Shown: positions 36,233-45,251 of the stretch, in pieces | How positions within the stretch are numbered: position 1 is the stretch's first letter | Layout: every line of letters starts with the position of its first letter | NCBI RefSeq assembly: GCF_030846775.1 | Contig: NZ_CP132910.1 | Coordinates: 2,886,001-2,950,000 of the forward strand | Direction of reading: 5' to 3' | Source of the DNA: Geothrix sp. 21YS21S-2 | GTDB lineage: Bacteria; Acidobacteriota; Holophagae; Holophagales; Holophagaceae | DNA: 64,000 nucleotides | Notes under the pieces: model-generated | Databases searched by the model: none | Told to the model about the DNA's origin: nothing | The model's input: only the letters and a program-made list of their open reading frames with translations | Program-made: the position numbers and the translations under genes

Positions 36233-37015
36233 ATGCGCTACCTCTATTGCCAGGTGAACGAACTGGCCCTGGCCCTCTTCATGATTTCCGCCTTCACCCT
36301 GGCTGCCGTCGGGACCCTGAAGGCCTCCTACCGGTTCCTGCCCGGGCTGCGCTTCGAACCGGGCTCCTCGGATTTCGGCCAGATCTACGGTGGCGCGGTG
36401 GGCTCCATCTTCGCCCTGGTCTTCGCCCTGGTGATCGTCGCCGTGTGGCAGAACTACGACAAGGTGTCCTCGATCGTGGACCAGGAGGCCAACGCCCTGC
36501 ACAACCTCTACCAGAACCTCGAAGGCTACCCTCCGGAGTTCCGGGATCCGATTCGGGCGGAACTGAAGGCCTACGTCCGGCAGGTCATCGACAAGGAGTG
36601 GACGAGGATCACCGACGGGGACCAGGACCCGGAGACCAACCGGATGATCGCCCATCTCGGCCTGGCCTTCACCACCTACAAGCCGGCCGCCCTGGGCGAC
36701 CTGCCCCTGCATCAGCAGCAGCTCCAGCAGCTGGCCCTTTGCCGGAGCCTGCGCCATGACCGCATCGAAGGCGGGGAAACCTACCTGGACGCGTCCATGT
36801 GGATCTCCCTCGGCATGGGAAGCCTCATCCTGCTGGCCTTCTCCTGTCTCCTGAACATGGGCAGCCTGCGCCAGCACCACCTGATGCATGCCACCCTCGG
36901 CGCCAGCCTGGGCCTGGTCTTCTTCCTCCTGCTGGTCTACAACTACCCGTTCCTGGGCCCGGGGGCCATTTCCCCGGCCCCGTTGAGGATGCTTTTGGAG
37001 CGGTTCTGGGTCTAG
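36233..37015 (+). CDS. DUF4239 (bestrophin-like) membrane protein
   Basis: A 260-residue protein with four predicted membrane segments: residues ~10-32, ~52-75, ~190-210 and ~222-245. The signature after helix 2 is VWQNYDKVSSIVDQEANALHNLYQNL, typical of DUF4239 proteins related to bestrophin-like channels. The middle cytoplasmic or periplasmic loop is helical. The function is not established. Its stop overlaps the convergent kinase stop by 4 bp. Confidence 0.75.
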   Translation: MRYLYCQVNELALALFMISAFTLAAVGTLKASYRFLPGLRFEPGSSDFGQIYGGAVGSIFALVFALVIVAVWQNYDKVSSIVDQEANALHNLYQNLEGYPPEFRDPIRAELKAYVRQVIDKEWTRITDGDQDPETNRMIAHLGLAFTTYKPAALGDLPLHQQQLQQLALCRSLRHDRIEGGETYLDASMWISLGMGSLILLAFSCLLNMGSLRQHHLMHATLGASLGLVFFLLLVYNYPFLGPGAISPAPLRMLLERFWV

Positions 37016-38442
37016 AGCGCTTCCCACAGCTTCTGCAGCTGCCCGCCGACGCGTTCCAGGGCCGGTTTGAGGCGCGTCTTCAGCCCGGCCCTTGCGGCCG
37101 CCGGCAGCAGGCCCGCGGCCTCCAGGGCCTGCAGGCGCAGCGGCGCGTTCAGCGCCCCCCAGTCCCGGGCCAGGGCCGCGGCCCAGGCCCCGTCACCCAG
37201 GCGCGCCCTCGGCACCCAGCGCCAGGAGGAGCCCAGGCCCGGTTCGCGCAGGTGCGGCAGGACCAGGTCCGGGAGTCCGGCCCGCTGCGCGATGAGGCTG
37301 GCGGCCTCGGCCCCCTCCCGCTGGGCGAAGGGGTCCCCCAGGAGGGCCAGCAGGGCCGGTATGGCAGCGGGAGTGCCCACGGCGCCCAGTGCGTTGCACA
37401 GGGCGAACCGCATGGCCTCGGGGGCCTGGGCCAGCTCGGCCAGGAGGAAGCCCTCGTCACCGGCGGCCACGGCGTTCTGGAGGCCTTCGGCCGCGGCGCG
37501 GCGGCTGCCCACGCCGCCGGTGCGCAGGCCGTCCAGGTAGGGTCCCAGCCGCGACCCGGGCTCCTCCTCGGCGTGGCGCCGGACCCGGCTCACGGTCTCC
37601 TGCTCCACGTCCTCGACCCGGAACCCGGGCAGGGGCTGGTCGCCCCACCCGGCGCTCTCGGCGCTCTCCAGCCAATCCGCCCACTCCGCGGCCAGGGCCT
37701 CCATGGAGGGGATGCGCCTGGCGGGATCGGGGGCCAGGGACTGCATGAGGATGCGCGCCATGCGGGGCGGGAAGCCCGTGCGCACCAGGGCGGGCGGGAG
37801 CTGCACCTGGCTGTAGGGACGGCCCGTGGTGAACTCGTAGAGGATGGCACCCAGGGCGTACACGTCGCACCGGCCGTCCACGCTCCTGGGATCGCCGTGC
37901 TGCTCCGGCGCCATGTAGCCCAGGGTCCCCACCACCATCTGGCTGCGGGTGACGCGGGTGCCCTCCCCGCCCTCCCACAGGCACACGCCGAAGTCGGTCA
38001 CCTTGAGGTTGCCCAGGGCGTCGAAGAGCAGGTTGGAGGGCTTCAGGTCGCGGTGGATGATCCCCGCCTCGTGGGCCGTGCGCAGGGCGCCGGCCACGGG
38101 CAGGAGGCGGCGCAGGAACCGCGCCGGCGCCTCTCCGTAGCAGCGCTTGACGTCGCCGCCGGGGAGCAGCTCCATGAGGATGAAGGGCGTGCTCCCCGCC
38201 CGGCCGAAGTCGAAGACTTCCACCAGGTTGGGATGGCTGAGGCGCTTGAGGACCTCCCCTTCCCGCAGGAAGCGCACCACCAGCTCCGAGTCGCCGGACG
38301 CCTCGGCCTTGAGGAACTTCACCGCCAGGGCCCGCCCCGGCCGGAAGGGATCCTCGGCCCGGTGCACCACGGCCATGCCGCCCTCCCCCAGGCGCTCCAG
38401 GACCCGGGCTCCGCCGGCGCGCTTGGGCAGGACCAGGCTCAT
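37012..38442 (-). CDS. Ser/Thr protein kinase with HEAT-like C-terminal region
   Basis: A 476-residue Hanks-type kinase. It has the glycine loop LGEGGMAVVHRAED, the Lys in ALAVKFLK, HRDLKPSNLL, VTDFGVCLWEG and GYMAPEQ. After about residue 280 come Ala/Leu-rich repeats (MRFALCNALGAVGTPAAIPA, LLGDPFAQREGAEAA) resembling HEAT repeats. No membrane segment is seen, so it is cytoplasmic. The ATG overlaps the stop of the FHA-GGDEF gene upstream (ATGA). FHA domains bind phosphothreonine, so the two neighbouring FHA proteins are likely partners or substrates. Confidence 0.9.
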   Translation of the reverse strand: MSLVLPKRAGGARVLERLGEGGMAVVHRAEDPFRPGRALAVKFLKAEASGDSELVVRFLREGEVLKRLSHPNLVEVFDFGRAGSTPFILMELLPGGDVKRCYGEAPARFLRRLLPVAGALRTAHEAGIIHRDLKPSNLLFDALGNLKVTDFGVCLWEGGEGTRVTRSQMVVGTLGYMAPEQHGDPRSVDGRCDVYALGAILYEFTTGRPYSQVQLPPALVRTGFPPRMARILMQSLAPDPARRIPSMEALAAEWADWLESAESAGWGDQPLPGFRVEDVEQETVSRVRRHAEEEPGSRLGPYLDGLRTGGVGSRRAAAEGLQNAVAAGDEGFLLAELAQAPEAMRFALCNALGAVGTPAAIPALLALLGDPFAQREGAEAASLIAQRAGLPDLVLPHLREPGLGSSWRWVPRARLGDGAWAAALARDWGALNAPLRLQALEAAGLLPAAARAGLKTRLKPALERVGGQLQKLWEAL

Positions 38443-39410
38443 GTCCGTCCGTCGAATTCCACCCGGTTCCGGCCCTGGGACTTGGCACGGTAGAGGGCCA
38501 CGTCGGCCCGGGCCAGGAGGGAGCCGGCGTCGGCGTCCTCCGGCCGGAACTGGGCGATGCCGAAGCAGCAGGTGACGTGGAAGGTCTGGCCCGGCGCGTG
38601 GGACGCCATGGCCTCCTCGGCCAGGGCCTTGCGCAGCTCCTCGGCCACGGCGAGGGCCTCGCGGCCCTCGGTCTCGGGCAGGACGATGAGGAACTCCTCC
38701 CCGCCGATGCGGCCCACGTGGTCCGAGGCCCGGAGCCGGCCCATGACCACCTGGCCGAAGCGCTTGAGGACCAGGTCCCCCACGGCGTGGCCGTGCTGGT
38801 CGTTCACGTCCTTGAAGTGGTCCAGGTCGCAGATGATGAGGGTCAGGGGGCGCCCGTGGCGCCTGGCCAGGTCGGTCTGCTTCTCCAGGAAGCCCAGCAC
38901 CGAGGCCCGGTTCGTCAGGCCCGTGAGGGAATCCACCGTGGTCTGGGCCAGGACCGCCTCGTGGTAGTGCTTTTCCATCTCGTCCAGGTGCTTGAGCTTG
39001 AAGGCATGGGTCCCCACCCGGATCACGTCGCCGTGCTGGAGGCTCACCGGCCCGTTGCGCGTGAGGATCTTCCGGCCGTTCACGTAGGTGCCGTTGGTCG
39101 ACCCCAGGTCGGAGATGAGGACGATGGGCGCCAGGTCCTCCTGCCCCACCAGCTCGATGCGGGCATGGTGGCGGCTCACCTCCACCTCGGGGAGCACCAG
39201 GTTGTTCTCCGGGGACCGGCCCACGGTGAGGTTCACCGTGCGCAGGGGCAGGACCTCCCCGATGGGGACGCCCACATAGCGGATGAGCGCCCACTCCCCT
39301 CTGGCCGGCGGCAGCGTCTCGCCCAGCGGGGAGGCGAAGAGCGTCGGCGGATCGGATTCGGCGAAGTCCTCGTAGAGAGGTGGCTGAATGGGCATCGTGT
39401 GGGCTGGCAC
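38439..39410 (-). CDS. FHA-domain diguanylate cyclase (first of two)
   Basis: A 323-residue protein: an FHA domain at about 45-135 (VGRSPENNLVLPEVEVSRHH, DLGSTNGTYVNG) and a GGDEF domain at about 160-320 with GGEEF and the RxxD inhibitory site (RASD) five residues before. It should make c-di-GMP in response to binding a phosphothreonine, perhaps one made by the adjoining kinase. The start is GTG 39410 or ATG 39395; neither has a clear Shine-Dalgarno. Confidence 0.88.
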   Translation of the reverse strand: MPAHTMPIQPPLYEDFAESDPPTLFASPLGETLPPARGEWALIRYVGVPIGEVLPLRTVNLTVGRSPENNLVLPEVEVSRHHARIELVGQEDLAPIVLISDLGSTNGTYVNGRKILTRNGPVSLQHGDVIRVGTHAFKLKHLDEMEKHYHEAVLAQTTVDSLTGLTNRASVLGFLEKQTDLARRHGRPLTLIICDLDHFKDVNDQHGHAVGDLVLKRFGQVVMGRLRASDHVGRIGGEEFLIVLPETEGREALAVAEELRKALAEEAMASHAPGQTFHVTCCFGIAQFRPEDADAGSLLARADVALYRAKSQGRNRVEFDGRT

Positions 39411-39489
39411 AGGCGGGAAGTCCTATGTCATTTAAGCCTTTGTTGCGGAATTCCGCTAGCCCATGATTCGTGTTCCGCCACAAGCCTTG

Positions 39490-40476
39490 TCAACGAGGAG
39501 GCTGGTCGCAGACCACCTTGTTCCGCCCGCCGCGCTTGGCGAGATAGAGCGCCCCGTCGGCCCGGCCCATGAGGGCGCCTCCGTCCCGGTCCTCCTCCCG
39601 GCGCTCGGCCACGCCCAGGCTGCAGGTCACCGCCAGGGGCCCCGAGGGCAGGTCGAAGGGCACCTCGCCCGTGGCCGCCAGGAGGCGTTCGGCGAGCAGC
39701 TGAGCGCCTTCCATGTCGGTTTCGGGCAGCACCAGGAGGAACTCCTCGCCACCGATGCGCCCGGCCACGTCGGTGGTGCGCAGGCCGCGCACCACCCGCT
39801 CCCCGAAGTCCCGGAGCACCTGGTCCCCGGCCAGGTGGCCCAGCGTGTCGTTGATGCGCTTGAAGAAGTCAAGATCGCACATGATGATCGAAAGGGGCCG
39901 GTGGTGGCGCTTGGAGAGGTCGAAGCGCCGCTGCAGCTCCTCCAGCGCGGTGCGCCGGTTGCCCAGGCCCGTGAGGGGATCCTTGGAGCTCTGGTCCAGG
40001 AGCACCGCGTGGAAGGCCCGCTCCATGGCGTCCATGGCCACGAGCTTGAGCACGTGGCTGCCCATGGCGATGCGGTCCCCGGGGGAGAGCTCCATGGTGC
40101 GGGTCACGGCCCGGCCGTTGAGGAAGGTCCCGTTCGTGCTGGCGTTGTCCTCCAGCTGCACCCGGTCCCCGGCGGGACCCTGCCAGAGGGTGATGGTGGC
40201 GTGGGTGCGGCTCACCTCCTCGTCCAGCAGGGCGATGTCCACGCTGGGGCTGCGGCCGATGATGTTGGCCCCGGGCACCAGGGGAAAGACCCGGCCCAGG
40301 TGGGCGCCGGCGTAGACCACCACCACGTACTCGCACGGCACGGGCCCGGTCTCGCCGGGGAAGCGCTTGCGCAGGGCCGTCTCGAAATCCGGCCAGCCCG
40401 AGATGGGCACCGTCGGGTCCGGCGCGTCCACCTCCTCGGTCCAGTCCTTGTCAGGTTCCTTGCCGGGCTTGGACAT
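39490..40476 (-). CDS. FHA-domain diguanylate cyclase (second of two)
   Basis: A 328-residue paralogue of the adjoining gene: an FHA domain (IIGRSPSVDIALLDEEVSRT, NASTNGTFLNG) and a GGDEF domain (GGEEF with RTTD inhibitory site). ATG 40476 is chosen because GGAGG lies 7 nt upstream; it overlaps the previous stop by one base (TGATG). The two paralogues differ mainly in their N-terminal 40 residues, which suggests an old duplication. Confidence 0.88.
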   Translation of the reverse strand: MSKPGKEPDKDWTEEVDAPDPTVPISGWPDFETALRKRFPGETGPVPCEYVVVVYAGAHLGRVFPLVPGANIIGRSPSVDIALLDEEVSRTHATITLWQGPAGDRVQLEDNASTNGTFLNGRAVTRTMELSPGDRIAMGSHVLKLVAMDAMERAFHAVLLDQSSKDPLTGLGNRRTALEELQRRFDLSKRHHRPLSIIMCDLDFFKRINDTLGHLAGDQVLRDFGERVVRGLRTTDVAGRIGGEEFLLVLPETDMEGAQLLAERLLAATGEVPFDLPSGPLAVTCSLGVAERREEDRDGGALMGRADGALYLAKRGGRNKVVCDQPPR

Positions 40477-41264
40477 CAGACATCCTCCACGAAGCAGCAC
40501 ACGATCGATTCGTCATCCTTCTTCCGGGCCAGGACGAAGGGGGCCCTCGGGGCGCCCACGCTCTCCGGGCCGAGGGTGACCAGGAGGCGCCCGGTGGAGG
40601 CCTGATGGTTGATCTGCCGGGTGCCCCGCGCGGGGATCCGGTAGAGGCCCAGCACATCCAGATTACGGATGTTCTCGCCGGTCTCCCGCACCAATTTCAG
40701 GGTATACCGCATCCAGATCGCCTTGGGGAGCTTCTGGACATCCTCCCCCACGAAGGCCACCGGCAGGGCCAGGGCGTGCTCCAGGGCGCGGAAGGACCGG
40801 GGGGCGTCCAGGGCGCAGGGCGCGGCCAGGACCCGGGCCCAGGCCAGGGGCTCCAGCCCGGGCCGGCTCCGGGCGCGAAACGCCTCCGGGGCCACCTCGC
40901 GCACCCGGGGCCTCCGGGGAAGGGGCGGCACCTCGAGGCGGGCGGCCTCCCCGGCCTCGAAGAGCGGCAGGACGCAAACCTGGGCACCCGCGGCCCAGCT
41001 GCCCCACCCGTCCTCCCCGCGAACCTCGGCCGTCCAGCGGAAGGCCACCGCCGTGGGCGGGACCGGTGCCAGCACAGGGACCTGCGCGGTGGCCGCCATG
41101 AGCCGGAAGTCCGGGGCCTGGGCCCGGGTCCCGAGGGGCTCCGCCCCCCGGGCCCCGGGGACCGGCAGGCCGAGGTCCACGCCCCGCGTGGGCGGGTCCC
41201 TGAAGACCCGCCGGATGGTTTCGGCCATGTCGGACATCGCGTCCCGGAACCGGCCGCCCACCAT
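40476..41264 (-). CDS. Unknown protein in FHA-GGDEF-kinase cluster
   Basis: A 262-residue protein I do not recognise. There is no signal peptide or membrane segment. Segments such as AFRWTAEVRGEDGWGSWAAG and LVRETGENIRNLDVLGLYRI suggest a mixed alpha/beta fold. Its ATG is 2 nt after the stop of the preceding unknown gene, and its own stop overlaps the next start, so all these genes are co-transcribed. It may be an adaptor of the signalling system. Confidence 0.55.
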   Translation of the reverse strand: MVGGRFRDAMSDMAETIRRVFRDPPTRGVDLGLPVPGARGAEPLGTRAQAPDFRLMAATAQVPVLAPVPPTAVAFRWTAEVRGEDGWGSWAAGAQVCVLPLFEAGEAARLEVPPLPRRPRVREVAPEAFRARSRPGLEPLAWARVLAAPCALDAPRSFRALEHALALPVAFVGEDVQKLPKAIWMRYTLKLVRETGENIRNLDVLGLYRIPARGTRQINHQASTGRLLVTLGPESVGAPRAPFVLARKKDDESIVCCFVEDV

Positions 41265-41266
41265 GC

Positions 41267-41812
41267 CTACACCGGCTTGACCAGGGTCTGGAGGGCCGCG
41301 GCGACCCGCTCCAGGGGCTCCACGGGATCCATCTGGTAGGCGGCTTCCAGCAGCCTGCCCAGGGCCTGCTCCTGGGCCGGCAGGTCCACGGACTGGGCGA
41401 AGATCACCCGCAGCGGGGCCGCCCCTTCCGCCACCTGGAGCAGCACCTCCCGGGGCGAGGCCCGGAAGCTCTCGCCCACCCGCGCCAGGGGGGACTCCTG
41501 CGTCTTCTGAACCGCCAGGGCCGGGCACTTCGCCTCCCCGTTCCAGCCCCCCGCGAGCTCCGCCGGGGGCAGGATGAAGAGGTCCGGCGGGGACTTGAGC
41601 TCCTTGAGAAGCGTCTTCTGGATCACCTCCTCCTTGAGGTGCGGCTCGAGGGCCTTGCCGTAGAGCACCGCCTGGAGCTTCGTGGGGGTGATGGGCTCGG
41701 TGTAGCGGAAATCCAGCGGGATCCCGGAGGCGTCGGTGAGGAGCAGCCCCCCCAGGTAGCTGGCGCCCTCCTTCATCGCCACGAAATAGGCCAGTTTCAG
41801 GGTATCTGCCAT
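41267..41812 (-). CDS. Unknown protein heading FHA-GGDEF-kinase cluster
   Basis: A 181-residue protein starting MADTLKLAYFVAMKEGASYL, with SYLGGLLLTDASGIPLDFRY near the N-terminus, which looks like a roadblock/longin-type strand-turn-strand. The C-terminal part is helical. No family is assigned. It is the first gene of the five-gene minus-strand run ending at 37012. Confidence 0.55.
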   Translation of the reverse strand: MADTLKLAYFVAMKEGASYLGGLLLTDASGIPLDFRYTEPITPTKLQAVLYGKALEPHLKEEVIQKTLLKELKSPPDLFILPPAELAGGWNGEAKCPALAVQKTQESPLARVGESFRASPREVLLQVAEGAAPLRVIFAQSVDLPAQEQALGRLLEAAYQMDPVEPLERVAAALQTLVKPV

Positions 41813-43763: not shown

Positions 43764-44582
43764 ATGCGACTCGTCCCCCTCGTCCTCACCGCCGTGCTGG
43801 GCTTCCTGCCGGCCCACGCCGATCCGGACCGCCCCGGCTCCAAGGACCATCCGCTCCTGACGCGCATGCAGAACATGCACATCGTCGCCTACCGGACCCA
43901 GGCCTTCGATTCCTACCCCTTCAAGGGCCCCAAGGGCAAGACCACCCCGGTGGAGGGGCGGTTCTTCGAGATCCGCTACCAGGCCGACAAGGGCACCCAG
44001 GCCCCTTCGCCCCTGGCCATCCACCGCAACCACCAGGCCGCCCTGCGGGCCCTGGGCGGCACCGTCCTCCTCGAGGAGGGGCGCTACACGACGATGGTGG
44101 CCGCCAAGGGCGGCGCCGAGACCTGGATCCAGGTGGACTCGGCCTGGGGCGGGGGCTACCAGCTCACCATCGTGGAGAAGGCCGGCATGGCCCAGGAGGT
44201 CAAGGCCAACGCCGACGCCTTCCGGGCCGGCCTGGGCGCCGCGGGCCACGTGGAGGTGCCGGGCATCCACTTCGACTCCGGCAAGGCCGAGCTCAGGGAG
44301 GACTCCCGGGCCGCCGTGGCCGAGGTCGCCGTGCTCCTCAAGGCCAGCCCGGCCCTGAAGGTCTTCGTGGTGGGCCACACCGATTCCGTCGCCGCCCCCG
44401 ACCTGAACCTGAGGCTCTCCCAGGCCCGGGCCGAGTCCGTGGTCCAGGCCCTGGTGAAGGACCACGGCATCGCCCCCGCGCGCCTGCGCGGCTTCGGCGC
44501 CGGCCCCTTCGCGCCGGTGGCTTCCAACGACACCGAGGAGGGCCGCGGGAAGAACCGCCGGGTGGAACTGGTCAAGATGTAG
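43764..44582 (+). CDS. OmpA-family outer-membrane/periplasmic protein
   Basis: A 272-residue protein with a signal peptide (MRLVPLVLTAVLGFLPAHA) and a C-terminal OmpA domain, which binds peptidoglycan: IHFDSGKAELREDSRAAVAE, VVGHTDSVAAPDLNLRLSQA and EEGRGKNRRVEL. The N-terminal ~150 residues are a separate domain, with YTTMVAAKGGAETWIQV, seen in other OmpA-type proteins with DUF4892-like N-termini (weak resemblance). CAGGAGG precedes ATG 43764. It is convergent with and overlaps the alkyltransferase-like gene by 11 bp. Confidence 0.85.
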   Translation: MRLVPLVLTAVLGFLPAHADPDRPGSKDHPLLTRMQNMHIVAYRTQAFDSYPFKGPKGKTTPVEGRFFEIRYQADKGTQAPSPLAIHRNHQAALRALGGTVLLEEGRYTTMVAAKGGAETWIQVDSAWGGGYQLTIVEKAGMAQEVKANADAFRAGLGAAGHVEVPGIHFDSGKAELREDSRAAVAEVAVLLKASPALKVFVVGHTDSVAAPDLNLRLSQARAESVVQALVKDHGIAPARLRGFGAGPFAPVASNDTEEGRGKNRRVELVKM

Positions 44583-44889
44583 CGCCGTCCCAGCCGAAGG
44601 CCTTCAGGTCCAGGTTGCCCGCGTCGTCCACCTCGACGCCCTCGGCCCGGAGCCGCTCGATCTGGAGCATGGCCCCCCACCACCGGCCCCGGCTGGGCAC
44701 GTAGCCCTTGGAATTCACGATGCGGTGCCAGGGCAGGTCCGTGCCTTCGGGCAGGCCCTTGAGCACCATCCCCACCTGCCGCGGCCGGCGCGGGAAGCCC
44801 ACCATCCACGCGATCTGCTTGTACGTCGCCACCCGCCCCCGGGGAACGAGGGCCACCGCGGCGCACACGGCTTCCCGGAAGCCGTTCAC
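44572..44889 (-). CDS. Alkyltransferase-like (ATL) DNA-binding protein
   Basis: A 105-residue protein with only the DNA-binding domain of O6-alkylguanine transferases: VPRGRVATYKQIAWMVG, RQVGMVLKG and LPWHRIVNSKGYV. The methyl-accepting Cys of PCHR is Trp here (PWHR), the hallmark of ATL proteins, which flag O6-alkylguanine for nucleotide excision repair. The GTG start overlaps the stop of the DUF2203 gene (GTGA). Confidence 0.85.
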   Translation of the reverse strand: MNGFREAVCAAVALVPRGRVATYKQIAWMVGFPRRPRQVGMVLKGLPEGTDLPWHRIVNSKGYVPSRGRWWGAMLQIERLRAEGVEVDDAGNLDLKAFGWDGATS

Positions 44890-45251
44890 CCGCGCCGGAC
44901 CTCCGGCTTGAGCGCCACGGGAACCCGGGAGGAGAAGCCCCCCTCGTAGCTGTGCCAGTGGTCCAGGTCCTCCTCGGGGAAGGCCCAGCACCAGTAGCCG
45001 TCCCCGGAATCGAAGTCCACCAGCCAGGGGCCCTTCACGTCGGGGCCCAGGTCGCGCACGGCTTCGGCCCAGCTCTCCATGAGGGCCTCCAGGCGGGTCT
45101 GGAGCGATTCCACCCGCGCATCCTCCTGCCGGTCCTCGGCGGCCTGCAGCTCCTCCGCGAGGCTCGAGGCCAGTTCGAACACCGGTCGCGTGATGACCTG
45201 GACCTGAGGCAGCGCCGCCCGGGCTTCCTCGAGAGTGAAAACTCGGGCCAT
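44886..45251 (-). CDS. DUF2203 family protein
   Basis: A 121-residue protein matching DUF2203: FTLEEARAALPQVQVITRPV at the N-terminus, a coiled-coil-like Glu/Gln-rich helix (about 30-60), then GPWLVDFDSGDGYWCWAF and WHSYEGGFSSRV. The function is unknown. It is coupled to the ATL gene downstream and divergent from the gene before lpxB. Confidence 0.7.
   Translation of the reverse strand: MARVFTLEEARAALPQVQVITRPVFELASSLAEELQAAEDRQEDARVESLQTRLEALMESWAEAVRDLGPDVKGPWLVDFDSGDGYWCWAFPEEDLDHWHSYEGGFSSRVPVALKPEVRRG

Follow-up and report, generated by a model that had tools for sequence, protein, structure and literature searches.

The 64,000-nucleotide stretch of DNA analyzed here (hereafter, the window) is part of the genome of Geothrix sp. 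21YS21S-2 (contig NZ_CP132910.1, positions 2,886,001 to 2,950,000), a 5.25 Mb genome in a single contig that belongs to the family Holophagaceae of Acidobacteriota. The window contains a cluster of five genes, all on the minus strand and arranged in the transcription order A-B-FG1-FG2-kinase, where A and B denote two undescribed proteins, and FG1 and FG2 two proteins that combine FHA and GGDEF domains. Gene A (41267-41812) encodes a protein of 181 amino acids (aa) that belongs to an undescribed family; gene B (40476-41264), which adjoins A in Holophagaceae, encodes an undescribed protein of 262 aa; FG1 (39490-40476, 328 aa) and its paralogue FG2 (38439-39395, 318 aa) are, by their domains, diguanylate cyclases; and the fifth gene (37012-38442) encodes a 476-aa Hanks-type Ser/Thr kinase with a HEAT-like C-terminal half. 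The unrecognized and more interesting part of this cluster is the family of A, which is linked to flagella across phyla and is partnered by B in Acidobacteriota.

An earlier note on this DNA had described the cluster as a set of overlapping genes for a Ser/Thr kinase, two FHA-GGDEF proteins with intact GGDEF and RxxD sites, and two proteins of unrecognized type. All five open reading frames (ORFs) are present, and their domains were confirmed with Pfam, with E-values of 1.6e-17 and 1.8e-20 for the FHA domains of the two cyclases and 6.9e-42 and 2.9e-43 for the GGDEF domains. The genes do overlap at the B/FG1 (1 nucleotide, nt) and FG2/kinase (4 nt) junctions, whereas 2 nt lie between A and B, and 94 nt between FG1 and FG2. 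The signature sites are intact as well: both cyclases have the active site GGEEF, and the I-sites are RTTD in FG1 and RASD in FG2.

The FHA and kinase motifs are likewise intact. Across 51 aligned FG1 sequences, the phosphothreonine-binding site of the FHA domain is almost fully conserved (G74, R75, S89, R90, H92, N115, and G116 in 100%, T114 in 96%), as are RxxD and GGEEF (100%); FG2 is similar in its FHA site, with the R and D of RxxD found in 100% of the sequences and GG[D/E]EF in nearly all. The N-terminal tail of FG1 is variable except for a single column that is Thr in 98% of the sequences (T33 in the window, codon 40378-40380 on the minus strand, in the context D-F-E-T-A-L-R) and is followed by Arg at position +3 in 90%; this Thr is a candidate phosphosite for recognition by FHA. 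A P-T-[VL]-P motif upstream of it (T22 in the window) is common to many FG1 proteins from outside Geothrix. No conserved Thr column was found in the tail of FG2, where Thr occupies the position of window T18 in 45% of the sequences. The kinase (Pfam Pkinase, E=1.5e-35) contains AVK at 40, HRDLKPSN at 130, and DFG at 150, and its C-terminal half matches HEAT_2 with E=4e-5, which is below the Pfam cut-off, in the window protein and with E=3e-16 in its relatives. Searches of Pfam and NCBIfam detected no PASTA or other extracellular domain in this protein, and its best match in NCBIfam is the PknB model, with a score of 199 against a cut-off of 450.

Gene order in Acidobacteriota

The earlier note had named conservation of the gene order as a check on the cluster, and the order is indeed conserved. 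Among 54 Holophagaceae loci, drawn from two sources such that some genomes are counted twice, the complete A-B-FG1-FG2-kinase order is found in 45 and, near a contig end, in another four (49/54); three of the 54 have A-B-FG1-kinase, and two are cut by a contig end. In the phylogenetic tree, FG1 and FG2 form separate clades (support 0.94 and 0.99, respectively), with single FHA-GGDEF proteins of other groups placed beside them, consistent with duplication.

Outside Holophagaceae, the cluster takes simpler forms. Three loci in Aminicenantes and three in another acidobacterial family have the one-cyclase order A-B-FHA/GGDEF-kinase, and five loci in Acanthopleuribacteraceae and relatives carry A, B, and the kinase and have no GGDEF gene beside them. 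The Pkinase-HEAT architecture of the kinase is retained in these groups. Thus, A, B, and the kinase are the constant part of the cluster and look like its old core, and the suggestion that the two unrecognized proteins are core parts holds, A and B being more constant than the GGDEF genes. As one element of the overall explanation developed below, and at a comparable level of confidence, we consider it plausible that in Acidobacteriota the A-B pair gained a soluble HEAT-repeat Ser/Thr kinase and, in most lineages, also one or two FHA-GGDEF cyclases.

Reduction to A and B is also seen within the family. In the Holophagaceae metagenome-assembled genome (MAG) G080, just these two genes remain, with one gene in between. 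At locus L105:6001-8080 (Holophagaceae MAG Nt197P3bin133), A is split from B by a same-strand gene encoding 229 aa, and there is no kinase or FHA-GGDEF gene nearby.

Proteins A and B

Neither A nor B of the window has a family match in Pfam or NCBIfam, and sequence searches of solved structures yielded no convincing match to A and no match to B; no relative of A was found in viral contigs.

The AlphaFold2 model of A, built with 46 homologues, has a mean predicted local distance difference test (pLDDT) score of 91 and a predicted template modeling score (pTM) of 0.86. It resembles Endonuclease V (EndoV), with Foldseek E-values down to 3e-8 and a VIA-align Z score of 13.3 for human ENDOV (root mean square deviation 3.8 over 169 residues), the PIWI domain of A. 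fulgidus Argonaute (Z 12.7), and the DUF99 protein 2qh9 (Z 12.3). The predicted fold of A is thus of the Endonuclease V/PIWI type of RNase H. Profile alignment of A with 21 EndoV sequences gave a weak match (P 0.012), which is full-length and in register and includes an E-P motif common to both at the last helix. The residues of A that are invariant after the first Met are Y9, G21, P32, F35, T38, Y51, G52, L68, G113, E165, P166, and R169. In the register given by that profile alignment (P=0.012) and by secondary structure, the catalytic acids of EndoV, which lie on strands 1 and 4 and on helix 1, have no conserved counterpart in the 46 A proteins, and none of these 46 homologues matches PF04493.

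Because it conserves no catalytic acid of EndoV, A is, judging from its sequence, most likely not an EndoV enzyme, and its identification as a working Endonuclease V was dropped. DUF99 (Endo_dU) proteins, however, cleave DNA although their catalytic tetrad is incomplete (PMC11585767), so that the lack of the EndoV acids is not proof of inactivity, and a nuclease role is kept among the alternatives weighed below. Probably, A binds nucleic acid or a partner, without EndoV-like cutting.

B is predicted to be mostly disordered, with an ordered C-terminal domain. The model has a helix at residues 3-20, very low confidence over most of residues 28-159, and, at residues 160-262 (40479-40787 on the minus strand), a C-terminal domain that is predicted with confidence and spans about 100 residues, the pLDDT of the block being mostly 84-92. 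Comparison of the model with known folds gave no usable match (the best, fetuin-B, has Z 3.3), which by itself does not make the fold a new one. The genes that occupy the position of B next to A in other groups encode proteins with weak hhalign matches to Holophagaceae B (P 0.004 for Acanthopleuribacteraceae, 0.001 for Aminicenantes, and 0.03 for Synergistota). Given these profile scores and the position beside A, homology to B is probable for the genes of Acidobacteriota and only possible for those of Synergistota.

The N-terminal helix of B (41205-41258 in the window) carries a motif, E-T-[LI]-R-R, that is nearly invariant in Holophagaceae and resembles the E-T-x-L-R around T33 of FG1. By their sequences, the two motifs are perhaps a common site of the kinase. 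The Thr of the motif in B is not retained in the sister family.

Association with flagella

We compared the presence of A with that of the flagellar export gene flhA, used as a marker; the counts below are given as genomes with both genes, A only, flhA only, and neither. In the class to which the window genome belongs (93 genomes), where the presence of B relative to flhA was followed as well, the genomes that lack A and B are nearly the same as those that lack flhA. Within the family, A and B are nearly always found in the same genomes and are missing together, and the kinase shows the same pattern of presence as A. When the class is restricted to its good genomes (completeness of 90% or more, contamination of 5% or less), the counts are 38/0/1/21 (Fisher 3e-15), G082 being the only genome with flhA but no A; at the genus level, A and flhA agree in 17 of the 18 genera. 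The absences fall into five groups, namely, part of genus g3, then g2, g7, and g14, and family f3.

The association recurs beyond this class. In Acidobacteriota outside it, flhA is present in 8 of the 9 genomes with A and in 67 of the 255 without A (8/1/67/188, p=2e-4); in the Synergistota-phylum sample, the counts are 75/2/10/34 (p=9e-19); and all 30 further A-bearing genomes checked outside Acidobacteriota have flhA. Some Gastranaerophilales have additional flhA-family genes, so that in this group flhA is a marker rather than proof of a flagellum.

The genomic neighborhoods in other phyla point in the same direction. In Synergistota and in a Fusobacteria MAG, A follows cheA-(cheW)-cheC-cheD-sigma-FapA and a small ORF, and is itself followed by a gene in the position of B; at one of the Synergistota loci, Pfam matches were obtained to CheA-type kinase domains with CheW, CheC, CheD, sigma-70 regions, and FapA. 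The distance between flhA and A is about 11 kb, for example, in four genomes (G369, G374, G390, and G397). In Gastranaerophilales, a sigma-70-type gene, which we take to be fliA, directly precedes A. At locus L115, a gene for a DUF6115 protein comes after A and a gene in the position of B. As A and B are conserved in swimming and missing in non-swimming Acidobacteria, and the A family lies inside flagellar operons of other phyla, these proteins are probably previously unrecognized parts of flagellar control.

In the window, a tRNA-Gln gene lies upstream of the cluster, in the opposite orientation, and a gene for a bestrophin-like membrane protein (36233-37015, plus strand) converges on the kinase gene, the 3' ends overlapping by 4 nt. 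Farther away, a 139-aa ORF (44572-44991, minus strand) encodes a protein that, judged by eye, is similar to alkyltransferase-like proteins of the MGMT family, with PWHR replacing PCHR.

Proposed mechanism and related systems

In the explanation we favor, with moderate confidence, the cluster is a flagellum-associated signaling module, in which A and B are an old flagellum-linked pair and the kinase acts on Thr33 of FG1, leading to the synthesis of cyclic di-GMP (c-di-GMP). A and B would sense the status of the flagellum or of the expression of its genes, or else provide the site of action. The kinase, which by its adjoining gene is the obvious candidate for this modification, would phosphorylate Thr33 in the FG1 tail, and the FHA domain of either cyclase would bind the phosphorylated tail. 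The GGDEF domains would then come together and produce c-di-GMP, limited by the RxxD I-sites, and the resulting c-di-GMP would tune swimming. What the analysis established is the order of the genes, the co-occurrence with flhA, the domain motifs, the conservation of the Thr, and the predicted fold of A, whereas the regulatory steps, the direction of signaling, and the binding of A to B are inferred. The idea of tail phosphorylation comes from the conservation of T33 and from the precedent of DgcB of Bdellovibrio bacteriovorus, in which the FHA domain binds the protein's own tail phosphorylated at T14, and the enzyme is activated when this state is locked; the kinase of DgcB was not identified in the paper that described it (PMC6733907). 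More speculatively, A might found an undescribed EndoV/PIWI-fold family of flagellar regulators that bind nucleic acid or a partner linked to a sigma factor instead of cutting, and that in Acidobacteriota are wired through the kinase to phosphorylation-gated c-di-GMP synthesis.

Several observations weigh against this explanation. The co-occurrence statistics ignore shared ancestry, though the link recurs in separate phyla. In the window genome, the cluster lies about 2.3 Mb from flhA and not inside a flagellar operon, and the Acanthopleuribacteraceae form of the cluster lacks an adjacent cyclase gene. Orphan FG1 genes are kept at two loci of non-flagellate Geothrix, and orphan FG2 genes at three loci of the non-flagellate genus g7, in each case without A, B, and the kinase, which implies that the cyclases have a use without flagella, too. 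Finally, genome G101, which lacks flhA, has a divergent A. The G101 gene (L171:5298-8429) is located directly before that of an 856-aa protein combining SNF2, helicase-C, and Mrr nuclease domains, the N-terminus of which, judged by eye, resembles B; here, A and B may have been reused as a pair in a restriction-like setting.

The strongest rival, tentative but to be taken seriously, is that A or B is the main target of the kinase, and that phosphorylated B (or A) is recognized in trans by the FHA domains of both cyclases, which would then be a later addition reporting on the state of the A-B complex. The A-B-kinase loci without an adjacent GGDEF gene are in line with this possibility, as are the loss of the kinase along with A and B, whereas FG1 or FG2 may persist alone, and the nearly invariant E-T motif of Holophagaceae B, combined with a long low-confidence linker. 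However, FG1 has a strongly conserved Thr in its own tail, and self-recognition of this kind has a solved precedent (PMC6733907); moreover, the sister family lacks the Thr of the B motif. Less likely, the cluster would have no direct flagellar role and would be a general surface or biofilm switch, kept in motile lineages as lifestyle traits vanish together. Although the distance of the cluster from flagellar genes in the window genome and the orphan cyclases of non-flagellate relatives fit such a switch, it accounts poorly for the location of A inside che/sigma/FapA operons in Synergistota and the Fusobacteria MAG, for its place next to a sigma gene in Gastranaerophilales, and for the association with flhA that recurs in two phylum samples. 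Still more improbable is that A acts as a nuclease of the Endonuclease V type, involved, for instance, in DNA repair or action against foreign DNA, with incidental operon neighbors: the fold of A matches EndoV and PIWI, DUF99 (Endo_dU) relatives are active with an incomplete tetrad (PMC11585767), and the divergent A of G101 adjoins the SNF2-Mrr protein, but the 46 A proteins conserve no catalytic acid of EndoV, and A co-occurs with flagella.

The earlier proposal of phosphorylation-controlled c-di-GMP synthesis is supported in part: the motifs are intact, and FG1 has a DgcB-like tail Thr, but A and B are not specific to c-di-GMP, being linked to flagella in several phyla and occurring with the kinase where no GGDEF gene is adjacent. 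FHA-GGDEF cyclases are already known, DgcB being the one studied best; here, a candidate kinase is encoded beside its candidate substrates, which makes the idea directly testable. The A family, which has no Pfam or NCBIfam entry, spans Acidobacteriota to Synergistota and Gastranaerophilales, with a fold so far known from nucleases and Argonautes, and offers a starting point for an unrecognized layer of flagellar control beyond the model bacteria.

In agreement with the statement of the earlier note that no system of this make-up was known, we found no description of the five-gene cluster, A, or B in open-access papers. The flagellar/chemotaxis operon ending in cheC-cheD-sigma-FapA, the genes of which precede A in Synergistota and the Fusobacteria MAG, is one of the closest known systems; no described counterpart of A and B was found for it, and in Holophagaceae A and B lie away from flhA. 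In its predicted fold, A is like Endonuclease V (PF04493), PIWI, and DUF99/Endo_dU, and differs from them in having no Pfam match, no conserved EndoV catalytic acids, and a genomic linkage to flagella and a kinase. The kinase resembles those of the PknB/Stk1 type in its Hanks domain with all catalytic motifs present, but C-terminal HEAT-like repeats replace the PASTA domains. FG1 shares with DgcB a disordered N-terminal tail with a conserved Thr, an intact FHA phosphothreonine site, GGEEF, and RxxD, although at position +3 of the tail motif FG1 has Arg and DgcB has Val, and FG2 has no conserved tail Thr. Unlike DgcB, the cyclases of Holophagaceae are two paralogues encoded in one cluster with A and B and with an adjoining kinase gene.

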